57,715 bases of DNA from a virus: positions 1 to 57,715 of IMG/VR virus record IMGVR_UViG_3300004097_000007; one strand, written 5' to 3'. The notes below the pieces were generated by a model that saw nothing but the letters and a program-made list of their open reading frames with translations, had not been told where the DNA came from and ran no database searches. Position 1 is the stretch's first letter. Each line of letters begins with the position of its first letter. Of this stretch, positions 21,733 to 50,161 are shown piece after piece. Both the position numbers and the translations under genes were made by a program.

Positions 21733-22659
21733 ATGCCTAATGAAATTCCCAGTAACACTGGATACGTTGTGGGTACTAATCACAGTGCCATTTCTGATTT
21801 AAAGGGATACTCTCTAAGTGCCTTCTCCGCCGTTGGCACCGTATCAAAATTTGGATCACAGGCCGTTTTAGCGCCATCTTCCAGTTTGCAGCGTACGCAG
21901 AGCTACGTTCCATTGGTAAACCCTGCGGCTGCGGTTGATTCTAATACTTACGCTGTGTCTGGCTCGGGAGCGCTACACGCGACTGTTACGGCACAGAAAG
22001 GTGCGGTGGTGATGCAATCATTCTTTCCCCCACACGAGGATCTTATAACAACGATTCCATTCGTTGCACAGCGATTTCCGGAGTGTGTTTCGTACGGATC
22101 CTCCGGCGGGCCTGGGTTCAAAACAACAGTGTTCGAGGTGGACAGTGGTCTTACTTCCACAGAGATCGAGTGGGACAGCATACGTTCCGAATTCGAAGTA
22201 TCCTTTGACCACGTACCTCCTAACGACATTGCATCCGTGGAGAGTTTTTTCTATGGCATGCGCGGGAGAGGTGTTGGGTTTCTTTATAAAGATTGGTCTG
22301 ATTTTACTATATCCAACCAAAATTTTTTAGTGGGCGACGGTATCGAGCAGAGGTTCCAGCTATTCAAGCGATATAATTCTGGTGGGTATATATTTGACCG
22401 TATCATACGAAAACCCGTAGTGGGGACAGCGGTGATAGCAGTAAATGGTGTAGTCCTAATTGACAATCAGGATTATTTTATAAATGAATCCACAGGAGAA
22501 ATATCATTCGTCGTCCCCCCGCCCGCCAACGCTCTGGGCACAGTTATTTTCGCAGAATTTGATGTTTCTGTTCGCTTTGATTCCGACTTCTTAAACGTGT
22601 CGTATGATGATCATCAACAACTTAATATATCCGGCTTACCTTTGATTGAGATACTATAA
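21733..22659 (+). CDS. Second DUF2460 distal-tail-like protein (308 aa)
   Basis: Residues ~105-308 repeat the DUF2460 pattern of the gene at 19295: AQRFPECVSYGSSGGPGFKT, TEIEWDSIRSEFEVSF, FFYGMRGRGVGFLYKDWSDF and GDGIEQRFQLFKRY. Residues 1-104 are an unrelated Ser/Ala/Val-rich N-terminal region. The two paralogs differ in fusion partner, so they may form different rings or a mixed hexamer. The stop overlaps the hub gene start as TAATG, showing coupling to the GTA orfg13-like gene; this copy is thus in the canonical orfg12 position. Confidence 0.8.
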   Translation: MPNEIPSNTGYVVGTNHSAISDLKGYSLSAFSAVGTVSKFGSQAVLAPSSSLQRTQSYVPLVNPAAAVDSNTYAVSGSGALHATVTAQKGAVVMQSFFPPHEDLITTIPFVAQRFPECVSYGSSGGPGFKTTVFEVDSGLTSTEIEWDSIRSEFEVSFDHVPPNDIASVESFFYGMRGRGVGFLYKDWSDFTISNQNFLVGDGIEQRFQLFKRYNSGGYIFDRIIRKPVVGTAVIAVNGVVLIDNQDYFINESTGEISFVVPPPANALGTVIFAEFDVSVRFDSDFLNVSYDDHQQLNISGLPLIEIL

Positions 22660-24869
22660 TGAAAACCGTCCCGACAACACTCCAGACACACCTAAACCAA
22701 GAGGTGACCACGCTGTGCACGTGCTGGAGAATAACACGTACAAATGGATCTAAACTGTTTTTCACGGACTCTGACGAAGACGTCGTTGAGGGTGGAGACC
22801 GCTACTTATCAATTGGGGCGTACAGACGAACCGCCATTGAAAGCACCGCCACACTGTCGGTAGATAATCTAGAAGTAACCGGAGTAGCAAACCAGCTTGT
22901 GCTACCAGAAAATGAACTACAAGCAGGACTATTCGACAATGCAGAAGTGAATATTTTTGTCACTTCGTGGCAAGGTGGCGTTTCTGGGGAGTTGAAGATG
23001 CGTCGCGGGTTTTTCGGCGACGTCCAATCTATGCCTAACGGGACGTACCAAGTCGAACTACGCGGACTGATGCAGCGATTGGGCTACACGTACACAGACA
23101 TATTTACGTCGAGCTGTCGTCTCGACTTAGGCGAAAGATCCTGTGGTATCCCAATTCCGCGCGGTCAAATGGAGCGTGATACTTCTTATGAGGTGGGAGA
23201 TGTTGTCATTGCTCCCAATGCAGGGCAGCAAGATAACGTAGGAACATATAGAAAAATGCCCATCGGCGACGCCAGTTTTGAGCAGGTTGGTGATGCTGAA
23301 CCTACGCCTTCTGTGTACTGGAGATCTGTTGGAAATGTTGATCCCACGTTTCCTGATATCCAACCAGTACAAGGAACCCATGTTCTAAGAGGTGGGGACG
23401 GCGTTACAGATATCATTCAGGACATCGATCTAGTGGATTCCATTGGGATAGCAGCGAAAACTATTGACGACAACAAGGCAACTGCAACCCTGTATGGATG
23501 GCGTCGTGACACCGACGGTGCTGGTCGTTTTCGTATGCAGTTCCTTGATTGTGATATGAGAGATCTGGGATACGGTAGAGCAGTGCTCGCAGGCGCGTCG
23601 AAAATGACGGCAAGCACTCCAATTGTACTGGGCGGCGATTTTACCGCAGAGGCTTGGGTATACTTAAACGCAACCGCCGATGCATCTGCTGCAGGGATTG
23701 GCGGCGCAGAAACAACTGCGGATGAGTACGCGGATATTCGTTTTAATCCTCCTAGATTATTTCACAAAATCAGCGTCGCAAGCAGCGTGTCTTACGGCAC
23801 ATCTTCACAAGAGTTAAATGTTGGACAGTGGTACCACGTTGCAGTGTCTCGCCGCGCGTCGGATGGGCAGGTAACAACGTACATAGATGGAATCGAGAAA
23901 GGCCAGTCATCTGGATACACGGACCCATTTACACTAGATTTCTTGATGGCTACCACGGCGGGAACCACAGATGCCATATATGATGAACTCCGTGTCTGGG
24001 ATGTGGTTCGAGCGGGTTACGAAATTCGCGATAACATGAAGAAAACTATTTCCGAAACAACGCAAGGACTGATTCATTACTGGCGTTTTAACGATTCGGA
24101 TGGCGCTGCTGTAACAGGAACCGTTACTGTAAATACAGGCTTAAACGCTTTTGAAGGAGGCACCATCGCGCCAGTAGCATCAGCTATGATACACACCCCA
24201 CATGTGTCCACAATAGGAACTGGATTTGAGAATGTGGGGGATGTGTGGATACTACGTGAATTGGCTAATAGACCTATCCCTGTAGGCGCTCGTTACGTAC
24301 AAATCTGCTTCGATGCTACCAGTACTGGAAACTATCTTGATAGTGTGTTTGGCTGGACCGTAGACCGTACTGGTGTTGAAATGCCGAGCATCTTATCCGA
24401 AAACACCTATTATTCTTGCACGGTGGCGGGTACTACCGGAACTACACTACCTGTTCTGGGTGTGGATACTATCGTAGACGGGGGAGCAACGTTCACACGC
24501 GCTGATGATTCTTTTTCACGTGGGGGGCTTGTCACATCTTCCGAAGGCGCGCGTGTATTCACGGCAATCGTGGAGGATACACGTGCGGTCGATGCGTGGT
24601 TTAACGGAGGGGTTGTAACTTTCGAAACAGGTGCAAACAAGGGAGCTTCCATGGAGGTGAAAAACTGGATGCAAGCTGACGGAAAGCTTGAATTGTTTCT
24701 TTCCATGCCGTTCAATGTCGAGGCAGGGGACCTTTTCCGCGTATATCCGGGGTGTGATAAATCCCGTATATCATGTGCAGCTATTTTTAAAAATATAATA
24801 AATTTTCGCGGTTATCCAGATGTTCCTGGACAAGACGATTTGTACCGTTATCCGGATGCGCGCCAATGA
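22659..24869 (+). CDS. GTA-like tail hub protein (DUF2163) with inserted LamG domain (736 aa)
   Basis: Residues 1-~170 are DUF2163: FFTDSDEDVVEGGDRYLS, TATLSVDNLEVTG, MRRGFFGDVQ and LRGLMQRLG. The C-terminal ~80 residues match the phage_BR0599 end (GASMEVKNWM ... GDLFRVYPGCDKSRISC ... NFRGYPDVPG). Four cysteines, C153-x8-C162 and C699-x6-C706, have the pair spacing of the lambda gpL [4Fe-4S] ligands as I remember it. Between the pairs lies a ~530-residue insertion holding a LamG domain (DFTAEAWVYLNA, QWYHVAVSRRA, TYIDGIEKGQSSG, YDELRVWD). Overlaps the next gene by 4 bases (ATGA). Confidence 0.85.
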   Translation: MKTVPTTLQTHLNQEVTTLCTCWRITRTNGSKLFFTDSDEDVVEGGDRYLSIGAYRRTAIESTATLSVDNLEVTGVANQLVLPENELQAGLFDNAEVNIFVTSWQGGVSGELKMRRGFFGDVQSMPNGTYQVELRGLMQRLGYTYTDIFTSSCRLDLGERSCGIPIPRGQMERDTSYEVGDVVIAPNAGQQDNVGTYRKMPIGDASFEQVGDAEPTPSVYWRSVGNVDPTFPDIQPVQGTHVLRGGDGVTDIIQDIDLVDSIGIAAKTIDDNKATATLYGWRRDTDGAGRFRMQFLDCDMRDLGYGRAVLAGASKMTASTPIVLGGDFTAEAWVYLNATADASAAGIGGAETTADEYADIRFNPPRLFHKISVASSVSYGTSSQELNVGQWYHVAVSRRASDGQVTTYIDGIEKGQSSGYTDPFTLDFLMATTAGTTDAIYDELRVWDVVRAGYEIRDNMKKTISETTQGLIHYWRFNDSDGAAVTGTVTVNTGLNAFEGGTIAPVASAMIHTPHVSTIGTGFENVGDVWILRELANRPIPVGARYVQICFDATSTGNYLDSVFGWTVDRTGVEMPSILSENTYYSCTVAGTTGTTLPVLGVDTIVDGGATFTRADDSFSRGGLVTSSEGARVFTAIVEDTRAVDAWFNGGVVTFETGANKGASMEVKNWMQADGKLELFLSMPFNVEAGDLFRVYPGCDKSRISCAAIFKNIINFRGYPDVPGQDDLYRYPDARQ

Positions 24870-32206: not shown

Positions 32207-32534
32207 ATTGGCAACATGTATTTCGGTTTTGTGCCTTTTAACGGCGTGCGCCGTGCCTAAAGAAGTGACAGTGGTGGAACCCGTATATATAAATATACAA
32301 GTTCCGGAGACGCTTATGGCTTCCTGTAATATTCCCGTACCGCCTACTCGTGCAACTCTTGAATCGCTTGGTGCAGAAGCCCAAAGTGTTGTCGCTGCAT
32401 GGACGTTGGCGCTTCACGGAGCACTAGAAACCTGTGCGGATCGTCAAGATGGATTAGTACGTGTAATACGTAATTATCAGGCAGAAATACGTCGTCAAAA
32501 CGCGATGAAGTCAGGTAAAATTAAAGGGCCGTGA
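32199..32534 (+). CDS. Putative o-spanin lipoprotein (Rz1-like, 111 aa)
   Basis: The signal peptide MNKLATCISVLCLLTAC ends in an LTAC lipobox, so Cys17 would be lipidated and the protein anchored in the outer membrane. The mature part is short with a VPPTRAT segment, then helical. Paired with the upstream i-spanin it would fuse inner and outer membranes at the last lysis step, indicating a Gram-negative host. The stop codon lies inside the loop of the terminator hairpin. Confidence 0.75.
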   Translation: MNKLATCISVLCLLTACAVPKEVTVVEPVYINIQVPETLMASCNIPVPPTRATLESLGAEAQSVVAAWTLALHGALETCADRQDGLVRVIRNYQAEIRRQNAMKSGKIKGP

Positions 32535-42695: not shown

Positions 42696-43856
42696 CTATT
42701 TCGATACGGTTACGGTTAATTTTTCAAAACCATTCCCTTGTTCTTTGTAGTCTTCTGGATCTAGTCCAGCCTCTTCCATGAGTGCCGTAGATAGTCGTTT
42801 TGCGCCAGCTTGTGCACTGTAAAAGACTTTCCAATTCTCACCCACCGCTCGACTTGTTCCAGCGTTTATCATTTCTTGTCGAATAGCCTCGTTAGCTTCC
42901 TTGACATCTCTCTCGGTCTGCTTTTCCAATGCTTTCAATTTAGCTTGATTAGCGACAAGAATGTCCATGCGTGATATCATATCTGGATCCTGTCCGTCAA
43001 TCTCTCCAGCTTTCAGAGGGTCACGTTTTTCAGGAACACGTCCAGTTGATACGATGCTGCATGCGTCTTTAAACTTACAGTACTTACAATCCCCGTCTAA
43101 TTTTCCTTCTGGAGCAAACAGCGCAGGATCTTCCACTTCGAAAACCTTTTTATTACGCTCGCGTCCGATTTGGTATTCGCTCTCCGAGAACGGTACTAAA
43201 AACGGGCGAATGTCATCATACCAAGAGGCATTCACGTATATGACAATAGCGTATTCGGGTTTGTACTCCGTAGTGTCGCGCACAAGTCCCATCTGCATCT
43301 GCGTCTGTCCGTGGTGAATGGCTTTAGCTTGTTTGATTTCAATTCTAGGGTCAAAAGACTTCATCTCTAAAACAACACTGTCGGCGTCTAAATCTCCTTC
43401 GAAACCGTAGTATTCTAAAAAATCTTTGGGTAGTTTACCACCCATTTCTGGATCAATGGGAACGATTAATCCGTCCAGTGTTGCAGAATTACATCCATCA
43501 CGAATTGTCTCTTGATCGTCTCCTTCCATAATCAAATCAAGTCCACGACGGTTCAAACCTTGGCGGATTGCGGGGACGATAAGATAGTTCTCCATTATAT
43601 CCCCACGACGCATCGCGCCCCAGTTCTCTTCGTGGTCTTTATCTACTTCGTGTCCAAATTTCTTTCCGTGCTTCCCGAACCAAGTCTTACGGATGCACCC
43701 AAAACATTCGGAGGCACCTACCATTTCATTACGGTCATATTTCCACGTCTTCTGGTGGCTGGCGACGAATTCGTCAAAACAATCCTCAAACGTGAACCCG
43801 CCCGCAGGGATGTCCTTAGGGACACCTGTCGCCATGAGTTCTTCGTAATAGCTCAT
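42696..43856 (-). CDS. Cas4/RecB-like PD-(D/E)XK nuclease with Fe-S cysteines (386 aa)
   Basis: GASECFGCIRKTWFG (~48-62) and DCKYCKFKDAC (~265-275) supply cysteines in the layout of Cas4/AddB-type [4Fe-4S] exonucleases. SVVLEMKSF (~172) is the ExK active site, preceded by an Asp in ATLDGLIVP, and QTQMQMGL is the downstream Q-motif. The protein would process DNA ends in recombination. The C-terminal region is helical. Coupled by TAATG to the upstream gene. Confidence 0.8.
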   Translation of the reverse strand: MSYYEELMATGVPKDIPAGGFTFEDCFDEFVASHQKTWKYDRNEMVGASECFGCIRKTWFGKHGKKFGHEVDKDHEENWGAMRRGDIMENYLIVPAIRQGLNRRGLDLIMEGDDQETIRDGCNSATLDGLIVPIDPEMGGKLPKDFLEYYGFEGDLDADSVVLEMKSFDPRIEIKQAKAIHHGQTQMQMGLVRDTTEYKPEYAIVIYVNASWYDDIRPFLVPFSESEYQIGRERNKKVFEVEDPALFAPEGKLDGDCKYCKFKDACSIVSTGRVPEKRDPLKAGEIDGQDPDMISRMDILVANQAKLKALEKQTERDVKEANEAIRQEMINAGTSRAVGENWKVFYSAQAGAKRLSTALMEEAGLDPEDYKEQGNGFEKLTVTVSK

Positions 43857-44125
43857 TATACGTTACCATACCCCATTGATTTTGCTGGATCATCCATTTG
43901 TGGTACCTTCAAATTGTGGTCCTGACACGCCATCATGTATCCGATCTGCATTGCACGTCTAATGCTTATTTCATTGATGTCGTTGGAGACTTTCTGTACC
44001 AAGCGTTCCCCTCCGCGAGTGATATCACTCATATACACTGAAATACGTTCGTTGTAAAGAGGATTTTCATTAGACCCTGTATCTTGAGTAGATGTCGGGT
44101 TATTGTAGTTATTATTCGGTTCCAT
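43856..44125 (-). CDS. Hypothetical protein (89 aa)
   Basis: Asn/Thr-rich N-terminus (MEPNNNYNNPTSTQDTGSNE), then a helical core (RLVQKVSNDINEISIRRAMQ). It overlaps the exonuclease gene by 14 bases and the nuclease gene by one. Function unknown; probably an accessory of the recombination block. Confidence 0.6.
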   Translation of the reverse strand: MEPNNNYNNPTSTQDTGSNENPLYNERISVYMSDITRGGERLVQKVSNDINEISIRRAMQIGYMMACQDHNLKVPQMDDPAKSMGYGNV

Positions 44126-44723
44126 TGAACACTCCTAAATCCAGTAGATGGTAGAATACTTTTGCAGTCCCTTTAACGTCAACCAAGGCGTCGTGGGCAC
44201 CGTCTAGTTCTTCGCCGAAAAAGTGCATCATACATTCTTCCAGCTTAGGCCACTTATATTTACCGTAGCGCATAGGCAGGGCCTTAACGATGTTCGTTGA
44301 GTTCACCATTGTACACGCTAAGGTTTTTCCAATAAACGGGTCGGTGTATTTTTGATCTGTGCGCTCGCTGTACACTTTACACATACGGCGCATCACCGTG
44401 ACGTCAAAAGCGATGTTATGTGCCACAATTGTGTCAGCGTTTTCCATCATATCAAGAAACATTTCAACACCTGTTATCAGGTCACATCCATACTCGTCGG
44501 CGATATCGTTGTCAATTCCGGTAATTTCGGCAGCTTTTGGGTTTACAATCCAATCTCCGTTTGTACGGATACAGTAATTAAAGGCACCACGCTCGTTACG
44601 GTTCATCCCGTCCAGCTTCATACCTATTTGTACAGCCATAGGCTGTCTCGGGTGAATATCTTCGAACTTATCCAACTTTAATCCAGTGGTTTCAGTATCG
44701 AAAAAGAGTACGTTTTTGTTCAT
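44112..44723 (-). CDS. DEDDh 3'-5' exonuclease (DnaQ-like, 203 aa)
   Basis: Exo I FFDTETTGLK (Asp9, Glu11), Exo II AHNIAFDVTVM (~98-108) and Exo III HDALVDVKGT (~182) form the DEDDh set of proofreading-type exonucleases. Because the neighbouring polymerase has its own N-terminal exonuclease, this enzyme more likely trims DNA or RNA ends in recombination or degrades host DNA fragments. It has its own strong promoter. Confidence 0.88.
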   Translation of the reverse strand: MNKNVLFFDTETTGLKLDKFEDIHPRQPMAVQIGMKLDGMNRNERGAFNYCIRTNGDWIVNPKAAEITGIDNDIADEYGCDLITGVEMFLDMMENADTIVAHNIAFDVTVMRRMCKVYSERTDQKYTDPFIGKTLACTMVNSTNIVKALPMRYGKYKWPKLEECMMHFFGEELDGAHDALVDVKGTAKVFYHLLDLGVFNGTE

Positions 44724-44771: not shown

Positions 44772-47027
44772 TTAGTGAGTAGCGGCCCACGTCATACCAA
44801 TAGCGGATTCGGCGGTTACAGGGCAGTTGAAATTAAAATGCTCCCCTGCAAGAGGTGCCGCAGCTTCCATTATTTCAGCGGCGCGTTCTGCCAAGTCTTC
44901 GCGTACTGCGATCTGAATTTCGTCGTGAGACCACGAGCAGAAGAAATATTCTAAATTGGGGCCGTGATCCCACCCTTCTTCATAGAACATATCGTCAACA
45001 AGTAGACACCATTTCTTCGCAATTAGCGCACCGTCAGATTGCAGGCGAAGATTCAACGCAGAATGCTTTGAGCGTGCATATAATCGACGTCCGTCCAGTC
45101 CGCGAATGGTGTTAGAGTTCTTTCGCATCTCTTTGTGAATTTCACGGATCGCCTTCTGTAGTGAAGGCATCGCCGCCATGAGCTTTGATCGAAGTGTCTT
45201 ACCTAAAGACTGCTGACGGGCTGCGGATGAGAATGGCTCAACAATAGAACCAAGCTTTCCGTCCCCTCCGCCATACATGGCGGCGTACAGGAGGCGCTTA
45301 GCCACTGATCGTGTAATTCCCGCCAACTGGGCGTTTCGAGCGTGAATATCTCCGTTGAGTACTACGTCCACGATTTCTCCACCATCAAACGGGAACGTAA
45401 GATTCCCTAGGCAACGAAATTCGATTCCCGAGAGATCGCATCCTACCAGCTTATAGCCTTTAGGTACGGTAAACAATTCGCGGCAATCGTATCCGTAATC
45501 CCCCGCGCGTCCGCGTGCCACGATAGACCACTCAGATTTATTCTCTTTCCACTTTGATGATACGATGATAGGCGCACTCCAGCTATTTACGTTCCCAGCG
45601 TTTTTAGAAAGAAACTCCTCTCCTTTTTCTTTCGCCATTTCAGGAGTTATTCCTTTGTCTTCGTTAGCTCCAAATTCCACCGCATTTACCCCCGGCACCT
45701 GTGAGATGTTTGGGGAAGAGTGTGTAGCACGTCCTGATACGGTTCCACCTACATTTACACGTCCGTGGATTCGTCCGTCACTGCGGAGTAATTTCAGCCA
45801 TCCATTTTTACCGTCAGATACTTGTCCTAGTCGTTTTTTGTAAAAGAATAATTCCGCCAATGTTGCAGCCAAAGGAACATCATCAGCAAGATCTCGTAGG
45901 ATTTCATCATTAACTTTGGCTGCACCTTTTTCCGTGAAGTCTTGCGGTTCCCACCCATACAACGTTTTTAAACGATCTGTAATTTGAGGACGTGAATTGG
46001 GGTTGAATTCTTTCAATTCAATTTTCACTAGAGGAACATCCGCATAAACATCTGGCATCATCTTACGAAAGTCTCCACCAGCCGCAGCCTTTGCACGAGA
46101 TTTACTTCTGTCTATGTTGCGCTTGTAGGTATCAACGTTTCCCCATGTGCGGCGGGCGTGGTGTTCTCCATGTTCTGTTACAAATTCGTCCGTGTGGGCT
46201 TTTAACGGTCGATGCCATTTTCCGATATCCGCCGTAGCTTCCTCTGCGAGTGCATCGTATTGCGTCTGAAAATCTTGAGCCAGTTTGTCCGCTTTATTTT
46301 TGTCAAACACAAACCCATTACGCTCTTGCTTTACCATTAGATCATGTATTTGGTGCTCCATAATGGTAGCTTCGCGGGACCAATTGCAGCGTAGAATACT
46401 TGTCCACACCAACATGTTAACGTCAACATCGTTGATACAGTAGTCGTGCATATTCTGACTCCACGTGCCCCAGACGTAGTGGTGTAACTCCTCTGTAGTC
46501 GGTGCATCTAGTCCTTTTTCTTTGTGAATATCCTTTAGTTCGTTTTCACGGTCTTTCTTATAGTCGCCTTTATGCATCCCAAGACGTTGGCCCCAGCCTT
46601 CAAGGCCCTGTGTACCAATTAGTCGCCCAGCCAGTTTACCTGTTGACGCTAATCGAAAATCTTTTTCCTTTTGATCTGCAAAACACATGCGAACCATGAC
46701 CAGTGTGTCAACAATACGGGCTTCGGGAACGAAATATGGATATATAAGTGCAATCGCGGGGATATCAAAGTCGATGATGTTGTGTCCGATGATTGTCTTC
46801 GCATCCATCAGGATTTTTACACCTTCTTCGAGGTTATTTCCTTCATCGTTGTTAACAAATTCTATCGTCTTTTCAGTGTGAATATCTTTGATCACAAGGC
46901 AGTGAATTCGATCCATGCAGAACGGTGGTTCGACGTGTTCGGGTAAAAGCCCGTTGGTCTCGATATCGAATATTACTTCTTCGAATTCGCCCGTCACGAT
47001 CTGGATTGGATTGAATGAGTAAGTCAT
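44772..47027 (-). CDS. Family A DNA polymerase with 3'-5' exonuclease (751 aa)
   Basis: The T7-type layout is complete. Exo I is FDIETNG (20-26), Exo II is IGHNIIDFD, and the DEDDy region is NDVDVN. Motif A is VGCDLSGIEFR. Motif B is RSVAKRLLYAAMYGGG, with Tyr at the position of E. coli Phe762, and motif C is SWSHDEIQIAV. ATG 47027 is preferred; an upstream in-frame TTG at 47105 has no ribosome site. It is the replicative polymerase. A Tyr at the 762 position is usual in fast lytic phages and favours ddNTP acceptance. Confidence 0.95.
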   Translation of the reverse strand: MTYSFNPIQIVTGEFEEVIFDIETNGLLPEHVEPPFCMDRIHCLVIKDIHTEKTIEFVNNDEGNNLEEGVKILMDAKTIIGHNIIDFDIPAIALIYPYFVPEARIVDTLVMVRMCFADQKEKDFRLASTGKLAGRLIGTQGLEGWGQRLGMHKGDYKKDRENELKDIHKEKGLDAPTTEELHHYVWGTWSQNMHDYCINDVDVNMLVWTSILRCNWSREATIMEHQIHDLMVKQERNGFVFDKNKADKLAQDFQTQYDALAEEATADIGKWHRPLKAHTDEFVTEHGEHHARRTWGNVDTYKRNIDRSKSRAKAAAGGDFRKMMPDVYADVPLVKIELKEFNPNSRPQITDRLKTLYGWEPQDFTEKGAAKVNDEILRDLADDVPLAATLAELFFYKKRLGQVSDGKNGWLKLLRSDGRIHGRVNVGGTVSGRATHSSPNISQVPGVNAVEFGANEDKGITPEMAKEKGEEFLSKNAGNVNSWSAPIIVSSKWKENKSEWSIVARGRAGDYGYDCRELFTVPKGYKLVGCDLSGIEFRCLGNLTFPFDGGEIVDVVLNGDIHARNAQLAGITRSVAKRLLYAAMYGGGDGKLGSIVEPFSSAARQQSLGKTLRSKLMAAMPSLQKAIREIHKEMRKNSNTIRGLDGRRLYARSKHSALNLRLQSDGALIAKKWCLLVDDMFYEEGWDHGPNLEYFFCSWSHDEIQIAVREDLAERAAEIMEAAAPLAGEHFNFNCPVTAESAIGMTWAATH

Positions 47028-47068
47028 TGTTTTAATGTCCACATTTCGATTAGTTGTTGAGTTAATAA

Positions 47069-47116
47069 CGTGACTCTGCCGTAACAGGTCGGGGGCTGAT
47101 AACAAACAGAGTCACG
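47069..47116. repeat. 10-bp inverted repeat with 28-base loop upstream of the polymerase gene
   Basis: CGTGACTCTG (47069-47078) pairs perfectly with CAGAGTCACG (47107-47116). It occupies the 124-base gap between the PvuII-like gene and the polymerase gene. No U-tract follows on either strand. The plus-strand loop contains GTCGGGG, as does the loop of the inverted repeat at 13621. Confidence 0.6.
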
Positions 47117-47151
47117 CGTATTGGCAGCGTGTCGATAGACACATTAATTAT

Positions 47152-47694
47152 TTACGCCGCCGCTACATCCTCAGTAGTGGTTTCCTTGGAAGCCCATGAC
47201 GGTGTCACGTCTTTCAGATACATCGCTGTACCGACTTCACGCACGTAGTCGATTGGAATTTTAGGATTATTCAAGTGTGTACGCCCTTTTAAAGAGCGTC
47301 GCCACTTGGCGAACACAGGCATAAGTGCAGCCGATTCAACCAAGTAGGCTTCGACAAGGGTACTATCTTTATATGTAGCAAACACGAAACGGCGTGCCAT
47401 AAATCGGTCGATAACTGCGGTATTCAGGTGATGATTTGTTGAGAATCCTGAGTTCTTTTTGTTCAAATCGACCGTTTTAATTTCGTATTCGTTTCCAATG
47501 CGATCCATGGCGTCTGGACCGCGACGTCCTGGGTGGATATCTAGACCAGTTGCTATCGCGATTTGCAGGACTTTTACGCCGTTGTCCGAGAATGGGTCCG
47601 CGATGCCGTACGACTTGGCGAGGTGTTTCAGCTTGTCAGTGGCTTCGAGTGCGTCTTCCATTTCGGTCCAGCGCAGGTTCATATGTGTTGGCAT
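47152..47694 (-). CDS. PvuII-like type II restriction endonuclease, no partner methyltransferase seen (180 aa)
   Basis: Close match, recalled from memory, to R.PvuII (157 aa) over residues ~28-159: DPFSDNGVKVLQIAIATGL, HPGRRGPDAMD, NEYEIKTVDLN, GFSTNHHLNT, HLNNPKIPIDYVREVGTAMY. Catalytic Asp61, Glu71 and Lys73 correspond to PvuII Asp58, Glu68 and Lys70. Asp37, His88, His89 and Asn142-Asn143 correspond to base-contacting Asp34, His84, His85 and Asn140-Asn141; only His83 is changed (Asn87). The extra ~20 C-terminal residues are acidic and polar. Strong AAGGAG before the ATG. Predicted cut is CAGCTG, which I find nowhere in this window. Confidence 0.88.
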   Translation of the reverse strand: MPTHMNLRWTEMEDALEATDKLKHLAKSYGIADPFSDNGVKVLQIAIATGLDIHPGRRGPDAMDRIGNEYEIKTVDLNKKNSGFSTNHHLNTAVIDRFMARRFVFATYKDSTLVEAYLVESAALMPVFAKWRRSLKGRTHLNNPKIPIDYVREVGTAMYLKDVTPSWASKETTTEDVAAA

Positions 47695-47697
47695 TGT

Positions 47698-48279
47698 TTA
47701 CTCCTTGATTCCGAGTGCATCGCACGCGGCGAGGTATTCGTCACGCGCTTTCTTTGGTCGCCACGGATAAAAGTCCGAGTCGATTTCGTAAAGTGTCTGC
47801 TCGGCGCGGCCGGGGAACTGGTCCCACTCCCACGGCGAGGTTGTCGTAAGCTCTTCGGCTTCCGCATAAAGCAGTTGAATGTCTGCCCACTTGACGTAGG
47901 CTTCAATGCCATCGTCATATGGAACGCCGTAACGTGTGCGGAATGCTTGAGCACTTCCGTTTTCGAAACGGCGGTAGTCTGGTAAAAGTGATTTGAGGGG
48001 AGAGTTTACATCGCCCCATGCGTATTCAGGGGCGTCGTGGGTCAAAGCCCACTTGCGTACATACTCTGGTGCTCCTCGCTGTACCAAAAGACGCTCAACG
48101 TACACGCTATGTTGCGCAACTGAGTATATGTCGTCTTCGTATCTGTCTGAGAGATGTCCTGTGAATCGGCAGATACGGCTTAGCGCTCGTGCAATATCCG
48201 GTAGATAAAATTCAGATGGATCGTGAGGACCGAAGTGAAACTTACGTCCGGTCGCGGTTGTGATATACGGGTGTGTCAT
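47698..48279 (-). CDS. HD-domain nucleotide phosphohydrolase (193 aa)
   Basis: YfbR/DatZ-like HD fold: an RFTGHLSDRYEDDIYSVAQH start (His57), then WALTHDAPEYAWGDVNSPLK with the His81-Asp82 metal pair, and VKWADIQLL supplying the distal Asp. Such enzymes dephosphorylate deoxynucleotides. In 2-aminoadenine phages the related DatZ removes dATP, but the needed PurZ is not in this window. The stop lies 4 bases before the PvuII-like start and its end holds that gene's ribosome site, so they are co-expressed. Confidence 0.85.
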   Translation of the reverse strand: MTHPYITTATGRKFHFGPHDPSEFYLPDIARALSRICRFTGHLSDRYEDDIYSVAQHSVYVERLLVQRGAPEYVRKWALTHDAPEYAWGDVNSPLKSLLPDYRRFENGSAQAFRTRYGVPYDDGIEAYVKWADIQLLYAEAEELTTTSPWEWDQFPGRAEQTLYEIDSDFYPWRPKKARDEYLAACDALGIKE

Positions 48280-48367: not shown

Positions 48368-50161
48368 TCAATCCAGTGCCTCTTTAATTACGCCCATTTT
48401 TTCTAACAAGGCTATCGCCATTCGGCTTTCAATGGACCCGTCTACCACAAGGTGCTGTACAAGTACAGCATTTAATTGTCCGTGTCGCCATGCACGATCT
48501 TCGGCTTGCTCAATCATCGCAGGAACCCAATCTAGTTCCGCAAATACAACAAAGCGCGCGCGCGTCAATGTAAAACCAACACCCATAGCAATGATGTTTC
48601 CAAGTATCACATCGAGATGCCCGTCTTGGAAATCGTCCACGATGTCCTGGCGCTTGTCTGGATGGACGTCTCCGGTAATCACACCGACGCGAATTCCTTT
48701 CTTTTCAAGGCGCTCTTTGATCGATTTGATTACCGACTTGTGGTATCCAAAACAAATTACAGGCTCGCCGCACTGGACCAGTTTCTCGACGTGCTCTACC
48801 ACCAATCCGACCTTGGCTAGTGCCACTTCTTCACGTGCCGAGCTGATTTCGGTGAACATGATTTGTTCTGGTGCGGAGAGCGTTTTTACCGCCTCGCCCC
48901 AATCAGGTTCTTCTCCTGATTGTTCTGCCAAAGCTGCTGCCAATTTGTCACAAAGGTTGTCGATGTATCGGAACAGATTTGAAGTATCGATTCCCAGTAC
49001 TGATTTCTCGTAGGCTTCCAACGCGTTCTCGACGCGGTTTTGCTCTTTCTTGACAGGTGCTTCCAGTTTGTCTTTTGGAAGTAGAACCATTTCGCGGTTT
49101 TTGTCGGGCAGCTCTTTCAGCACCGATTGCTTATCGCGACGTACCATGAAACGCTCACGCAGGAGACGGTTAAGTTCTTCAAGATTTGACGCGCCGGACG
49201 AATCAAGGCCCCCGAACGATTCCTGTGCGTCACAGTACGTTAGTGCGTATTTTCTCCAGTTCAGCCCTAGTCCCTCAGGGTCGCACGCTCTAATAATCGT
49301 CCAAAGTTCTGATGGTTTTGAAAGAATTGGCGTCCCAGTTAGGTACAGGTGGTGTGCAGCCTCGATAGGCGTGAATACTTTTTTCGATATTCCTTTCTTT
49401 CGACTTGCCTTACGCTCTCCGCCAAAAACACACATGGATCGTAGTGACGTTGCCGTTTTTAACAGGTGGGCTTCGTCGCAGATAACAAGGTCCCATTCGA
49501 CTTTTTTGATCTGATCATCGAACGCTTCAAGCATGTCGTAGTTGACGATACACACATCAGCGGCAGGCCAGAAGTGTTCCGTACGCGATTTTGATATAGG
49601 CTTATCGCGGTGATCCCGCGCTCGGCCTCCGTTAGGCATGAACACCGGATCATTGTGCAATATTGACGCAGTTTGTCCCACAGATAACCCGTGAACGTCC
49701 CAGCGCTCCCACTCACGCTTCCAATTGCGTTTCAATGACGCAGGGCAGATGATAAGGATTTTATTCAATTTCTTGGTGTTGTGTAATCCGATAGCCTGAA
49801 TCGTTTTACCCAGCCCCGGAGGGTCGGCTATCAGAGTTCTGGAGCGCTTGGAGGCGTACTCTATCCCAGCGCGTTGGAAGGGCATGTAAGCAAGCCCCTC
49901 AGGGGCAGGGAATTCTGCCACGGTGTCTTCTGCCCAAGATGCGTCAATCGCCGCCTGACGGATCGCTAGGGCGTTGTCAAGGTACTCTTTAGCTGCACCA
50001 ATCGCCCAATCCTTTACAAGTAGAGCTTTTTCTTCATCAGCAGTCCACCAATGCTTTCGACGGAAGTCGTACTTCCACTTAGCACGTTTCAGTGCAAAAC
50101 GATCTTTCTCGTATTTACGTGTGGTTACAAACTTACCATCAATACGGTCAAATTGGGTCAT
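48368..50161 (-). CDS. SNF2-family helicase/translocase (597 aa)
   Basis: Residues ~85-300 are the first RecA-like lobe: MPFQRAGIEYA (Q-motif), ADPPGLGKTIQAI (112-124), CPASLKRNW, DLVICDEAHLLK and LYLTGTPI. The second lobe carries ICFGYHKSVIKS, VGVITGDVHPDKR, GNIIAMGVGFTLT and EQAEDRAWRHGQ. The order is that of SMARCAL1/HARP-like annealing helicases and phage SNF2 proteins. It likely remodels forks or strips proteins from DNA. It is a single-subunit helicase, with no nuclease domain attached. Confidence 0.92.
   Translation of the reverse strand: MTQFDRIDGKFVTTRKYEKDRFALKRAKWKYDFRRKHWWTADEEKALLVKDWAIGAAKEYLDNALAIRQAAIDASWAEDTVAEFPAPEGLAYMPFQRAGIEYASKRSRTLIADPPGLGKTIQAIGLHNTKKLNKILIICPASLKRNWKREWERWDVHGLSVGQTASILHNDPVFMPNGGRARDHRDKPISKSRTEHFWPAADVCIVNYDMLEAFDDQIKKVEWDLVICDEAHLLKTATSLRSMCVFGGERKASRKKGISKKVFTPIEAAHHLYLTGTPILSKPSELWTIIRACDPEGLGLNWRKYALTYCDAQESFGGLDSSGASNLEELNRLLRERFMVRRDKQSVLKELPDKNREMVLLPKDKLEAPVKKEQNRVENALEAYEKSVLGIDTSNLFRYIDNLCDKLAAALAEQSGEEPDWGEAVKTLSAPEQIMFTEISSAREEVALAKVGLVVEHVEKLVQCGEPVICFGYHKSVIKSIKERLEKKGIRVGVITGDVHPDKRQDIVDDFQDGHLDVILGNIIAMGVGFTLTRARFVVFAELDWVPAMIEQAEDRAWRHGQLNAVLVQHLVVDGSIESRMAIALLEKMGVIKEALD

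Follow-up and report, generated by a model that had tools for sequence, protein, structure and literature searches.

A PvuII-family restriction endonuclease without a methylase partner in CbK-like roseophages that have lost nearly all CAGCTG sites

Introduction

Restriction enzymes are thought to require a partner methylase, as they would otherwise kill their bearer. The closest described counterpart of the phage protein examined here is R.PvuII of Proteus vulgaris, which has the same fold, catalytic triad and DNA-contact residues, is 36-38% identical to it, and has a similarly sized subunit (about 18-20 kDa in both). Unlike the PvuII restriction-modification system, the phage gene has no M.PvuII-type N4 methylase, is found in a phage replication/nucleotide operon, and is carried by phages whose genomes lack the target site or, in one case, retain a single copy.

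Two other viral systems are relevant for comparison. Chloroviruses also encode type II restriction endonucleases, such as CviAII; these are believed to break down host DNA early in infection and did not account for mutual exclusion (PMC7019647). In chloroviruses a cognate methylase gene remains next to that of the enzyme and the viral DNA is marked, whereas the roseophages would rely on the absence of sites. In phage T5, the breakdown of host DNA depends on A1, and nucleotides derived from the host are processed by Dmp (PMC13250531). A Dmp-type deoxyribonucleoside monophosphate (dNMP) phosphatase likewise adjoins the roseophage PvuII gene, and an A1-like gene (phrog_1745), upstream of the DNA polymerase, has a place comparable to the PvuII slot in the phages phiCbK, Lacusarx, RXM and Bajun.

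Results

The PvuII-type gene was found in a 57,715-nucleotide viral sequence, referred to in full as the window. It lies among genes of a replication/nucleotide module, all on the same strand:

42696-43856, minus strand: RecE/Cas4-like exonuclease, part of the replication/nucleotide module of the PvuII gene
44112-44723, minus strand: DnaQ-like exonuclease (PF00929), part of the same module
44772-47105, minus strand: family A DNA polymerase, the next gene downstream of PvuII; its start is probably at about 46985, from alignment with relatives
47152-47694, minus strand: PvuII-type restriction endonuclease, 180 amino acids (PF09225; phrog_28628), without an adjacent methylase
47698-48279, minus strand: HD-domain deoxyribonucleoside 5'-monophosphatase (phrog_318), T5 Dmp-like by annotation
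48368-50161, minus strand: SNF2-type helicase, upstream of the phosphatase, in conserved gene order

An earlier note on this DNA had proposed that a phage encodes a PvuII-like enzyme whose active site is intact, and Pfam, phmmer and residue mapping agree with it. The open reading frame begins with ATG, 6 nt downstream of an AAGGAG Shine-Dalgarno sequence. Its product matches Pfam family PF09225 (Endonuc-PvuII) over residues 11-159 with an E value of 1.7e-33 and 116.3 bits, for a curated cut-off of 25 bits; R.PvuII is its phmmer match in the PDB (E 2.4e-31, residues 22-159), and the uncharacterised phrog_28628 matches it at E 5.3e-61. The overlay on R.PvuII proposed in the earlier note gave the same answer: the best structural matches of an AF2 model (pLDDT 88.9) are R.PvuII entries, with an rmsd of 1.4-2.0 Å and TM scores (target) of 0.86-0.92 for entries of single-chain length. 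Chance similarity is ruled out by these three kinds of match, and the gene is confirmed as encoding a true PvuII-family endonuclease.

In the alignment, D61, E71 and K73 correspond to the catalytic D58, E68 and K70 of R.PvuII, which are invariant in 25 aligned homologues, including the methylase-paired ones. R.PvuII residues D34, H84, H85, N140 and N141 correspond to D37, H88, H89, N142 and N143, the residue at the K143 position is identical, and the DNA-contact positions are invariant or nearly so among the 25 homologues. We take S81, H84, H85, N140 and N141 to be the base-contact residues from known PvuII-DNA structures. The role of D34 is given by the title of PDB entry 3pvi, and this complete base-contact set for CAGCTG is kept in the window protein. 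Position 81 is Ser or Thr throughout the roseophage clade; at the H83 position, all phage-branch proteins and three methylase-paired homologues have Asn.

The window is 99.998% identical to positions 44498-102212 of a 139,562-bp IMG/VR contig, IMGVR_UViG_3300028844_004840 (G001), which we took as the window's own phage. Its relatives are CbK-like siphoviruses of roseobacters and Rhodobacter with genomes of ~146-150 kb. Six of them were compared (DSS3P8, V10, DSS3_MAL1, MD18, RcXuper and RpAliso), making seven clade genomes with G001; MD18 has been described as lytic and CbK-related (PMC7643831). Five complete genomes bear PvuII (RcXuper, MAL1, MD18, V10 and DSS3P8). The orthologues in DSS3_MAL1 (pvuIIR), vB_RpoS-V10 and RcXuper belong to phrog_28628, are 58-61% identical, and share the gene order. 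GenBank labels them pvuIIR, "restriction endonuclease" or "type II restriction endonuclease PvuII"; they are annotated by name only, and the papers searched gave no explanation for the missing methylase or for self-immunity.

PvuII is thus a clade-wide gene of CbK-like roseophages. The earlier note had described a lone restriction enzyme in a phage; the enzyme is indeed solitary, with no adjacent methylase, but it is not a single case. The phage proteins form a branch of their own with a long stem (support 99/99), and pairwise dN/dS values of 0.04-0.18 among the closest pairs show that the gene is under purifying selection. RpAliso, which is nested in the clade, is without it. Because RpAliso is sister to RcXuper in the polymerase tree (98/95), the gene was most likely lost there; the same position speaks against a lineage that never had it. 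PvuII is dispensable, as RpAliso has neither PvuII nor A1, and the outgroup Cp1R7A-A1 likewise has neither.

The PvuII gene starts 3 nt after the phosphatase gene, which is directly upstream in the same orientation, and this adjacency is kept in RcXuper, MAL1, DSS3P8, V10 and MD18. Genes for RNR, ThyX, dCMP deaminase and dNMP kinase are found farther along the module in the relatives. No C.PvuII-type controller is located next to the PvuII gene, whose flanks are the dNMP phosphatase and the DNA polymerase; as far as the flanks are concerned, this bears out the earlier observation that a controller is missing. The gap between PvuII and the polymerase contains a hairpin (CGTGACTCTG...CAGAGTCACG; about 47064-47122, minus strand), possibly a terminator or regulatory element, with a folding z-score of only -1.7. 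In RcXuper, the helicase and HD phosphatase genes are separated by one for an HNH-type endonuclease (phrog_681/phrog_559; L001:17966-19366); none was seen there in the other relatives.

Methylase genes were compared across 16 further IMG/VR loci, five bacterial loci and five GenBank phages. Each of the nine homologues that fall outside the roseophage branch (L069-L072, L149-L153) has a convergent M.PvuII-like N4 methylase gene next to it. None is present beside PvuII in the roseophage-branch loci, a few of which are short contigs that miss one flank (e.g. L066, L073). No PF01555 or PF00145 methylase was found within the 57.7-kb window, and the five complete PvuII-bearing genomes have no matches to PF01555, PF00145, PF05869 or PF02384. 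Searches for a cognate methylase elsewhere in the phages with PF01555, PF05869 and PF00145 gave only a C5 methylase gene in G001 (22049-22966; L044:2049-2966), outside the window, whose product matches Vibrio phage proteins at 52%. It is overlapped by a gene for a CmoA-like SAM methyltransferase (G001:22890-23579; L044:2890-3579), and both genes are absent from all six relatives.

PF02384 gave a weak match, in G001 only, to a phrog_799 protein annotated as "DNA methyltransferase" (G001:26473-27087; L044:6473-7087), also encoded outside the window. The phrog_799 protein (~204-240 aa, with an NPPW motif) is present in all seven clade genomes, RpAliso included; scanned directly, it shows no Pfam match that passes the cut-off. 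Its relatives also occur in PvuII-less outgroups, near the DNA polymerase in Cp1R7A-A1 and RXM, a distribution that does not fit a partner of PvuII. A cognate methylase elsewhere in the phage was rejected on these grounds, as neither candidate is of the N4 type. The claim that no methylase accompanies the enzyme stands for the window only, given the C5 and phrog_799 genes elsewhere in G001. In the literature on RcXuper, DSS3P8, MD18 and solitary phage restriction enzymes we found no account of a methylase-free PvuII, and the solitary state and self-immunity of the roseophage enzyme seem to be undescribed.

We compared observed CAGCTG counts with those expected from 4- and 5-mer counts. The site is absent from RcXuper, MAL1, MD18, V10 and DSS3P8, for which 73, 71, 61, 45 and 45 copies are expected (range 44.8-73.2), giving 0 versus about 295 for the five complete PvuII-bearing genomes together. 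The window (1-57715) has 0 for 11.3 expected, and G001 has one, at position 32528, for 24 expected. Roseophage-type metagenomic contigs of up to 81.7 kb also have none, with a small expectation in the shorter ones. By comparison, three of the four methylase-paired viral contigs contain 3-13 sites; the L069 contig (15 kb) has 0. The tetramer AGCT is common in the complete genomes (529-626 copies), so the loss concerns the hexamer. In the host, 238 sites occur over the 491.6 kb of the DSS-3 megaplasmid pDSS3 (0.48 per kb). The absence of sites supports the prediction that phage DNA is spared from its own PvuII, and a methylase would be unnecessary for genomes without the target.

Avoidance of CAGCTG is not specific to PvuII carriers, which counts against the methylase-free PvuII reading, as do the single site in G001 and the divergence of its enzyme. 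RpAliso has 0 sites for 66 expected. Among the PvuII-less outgroups, Cp1R7A-A1 has 0 for 24.5 expected, Lacusarx 1 for 69 and RXM 1 for 16, and there are none in the 215.7 kb of phiCbK or the 207 kb of Bajun. Many other 6-bp palindromes are equally absent from RcXuper, MAL1, V10 and DSS3P8 (~147 kb). Carriage of PvuII is thereby ruled out as the cause of the site loss. RGATCY and GRGCYC are missing as whole sets from these four genomes, with the exceptions that MD18 tolerates GRGCYC (110 sites) and G001 tolerates RGATCY (110). We read the absence of such degenerate sets as the imprint of selection by type II restriction in the hosts. Of the hexameric palindromes that none of the six complete genomes contains, CAGCTG is the one with the highest summed expectation (361), and MD18 lacks it despite its 110 GRGCYC sites; neither its rank nor the MD18 pattern tells the effects of PvuII and host restriction apart. 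No CAGCTG occurs in the 74.6 kb of DSS3phi2 (L160, FJ591093), a podovirus that infects the same host but is unrelated, and many other palindromes are missing from it. Site loss probably came first, with avoidance of host restriction making a methylase-free PvuII safe.

Discussion

We consider it reasonably probable that the roseophages have an active, methylase-free PvuII, harmless to the phage owing to site loss, that degrades host DNA. During infection, a CbK-like roseophage would make a PvuII-type homodimeric endonuclease that, judging from its residues, cuts CAG^CTG. Cuts in host DNA would fall roughly every 2 kb, whereas the phage genome, having lost nearly all CAGCTG, would receive one cut at most. 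The phage exonucleases and the neighbouring dNMP phosphatase may then use the fragments as substrates, which would complete host takeover. PvuII presumably entered on the clade stem from a restriction-modification source, at a time when host restriction had already cleared the lineage of palindromic sites.

In several related phages, the neighbourhood in which PvuII stands houses a takeover gene similar to T5 A1. The presence of the A1-like gene near the slot in outgroups and its absence from all seven roseophage-clade genomes suggest that PvuII may have taken over an A1-type role, although the A1-like gene is also absent from Cp1R7A-A1. No nuclease activity has been reported for T5 A1, and in phages that have A1 within the replication module it may act on RNA polymerase instead (PMC8541194); this weakens the slot argument. 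That RpAliso has neither PvuII nor A1 also counts against replacement. The full sequence of events, in which avoidance driven by host restriction was co-opted as self-immunity and a captured PvuII replaced an A1-type function and cuts the host chromosome, is thus one that we propose tentatively.

An alternative is superinfection exclusion, in which PvuII would mainly destroy competing phages or plasmids bearing CAGCTG while its own phage has no sites to cut. Potential targets exist, as other roseobacter phages contain the site (29 copies in RDJL Phi 1, 37 in SIO1, 7 in DSS3_VP1 and 6 in DSS3_PM1), but DSS3phi2, which shares the host, and all clade relatives have none. PvuII also adjoins a dNMP phosphatase gene within a nucleotide/replication operon rather than in an accessory region; the host chromosome is a far larger target; and the chlorovirus precedent argues against exclusion (PMC7019647). 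We regard a main role in exclusion as unlikely. Host-DNA degradation is favored over it on the basis of the host's roughly one site per 2 kb and the A1-like gene near the slot in four outgroups. The suggestion that the enzyme destroys host DNA or excludes superinfecting phages is accordingly strengthened in its first part by the gene context and weaker in its second.

The protein could instead have altered specificity or have lost double-strand cutting; it might then be a nickase, a regulator that binds DNA, or the product of a gene in decay. Where R.PvuII has Tyr94, the window protein carries Phe (F98); it also differs at two otherwise well-conserved sites (R99M and I111S), and its terminal branch (length 1.0) ranks among the two longest of the phage clade. 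Yet its catalytic and base-contact residues are all conserved, other phage homologues and one methylase-paired homologue share this Phe, and dN/dS is low across the family, making this explanation quite improbable. A split restriction-modification system, with the C5 or phrog_799 gene supplying the methylase, is very improbable: among the roseophage-clade genomes, CAGCTG occurs only in the C5-bearing G001, and phrog_799 is conserved, but the C5 gene is missing from all six relatives, phrog_799 also occurs in RpAliso and PvuII-less outgroups, neither is of the N4 type found with every other PvuII homologue examined, and without sites there is nothing to protect.

Host-DNA degradation by a methylase-free PvuII can be examined simply with culturable pairs, namely Ruegeria pomeroyi DSS-3 with DSS3P8 or V10, and RpAliso provides a natural relative without the gene. 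The roseophage enzyme represents a known family in an unusual setting, methylase-free and phage-fixed, with self-immunity by site absence and a role and activity predicted from its sequence and surroundings. This virus group appears to keep a classic restriction enzyme without its methylase in genomes free of the target. If this is true, the loss of palindromes, an anti-restriction adaptation, would become a licence for a weapon against the host, and the phage would be marked as "self" solely through the lack of a site.
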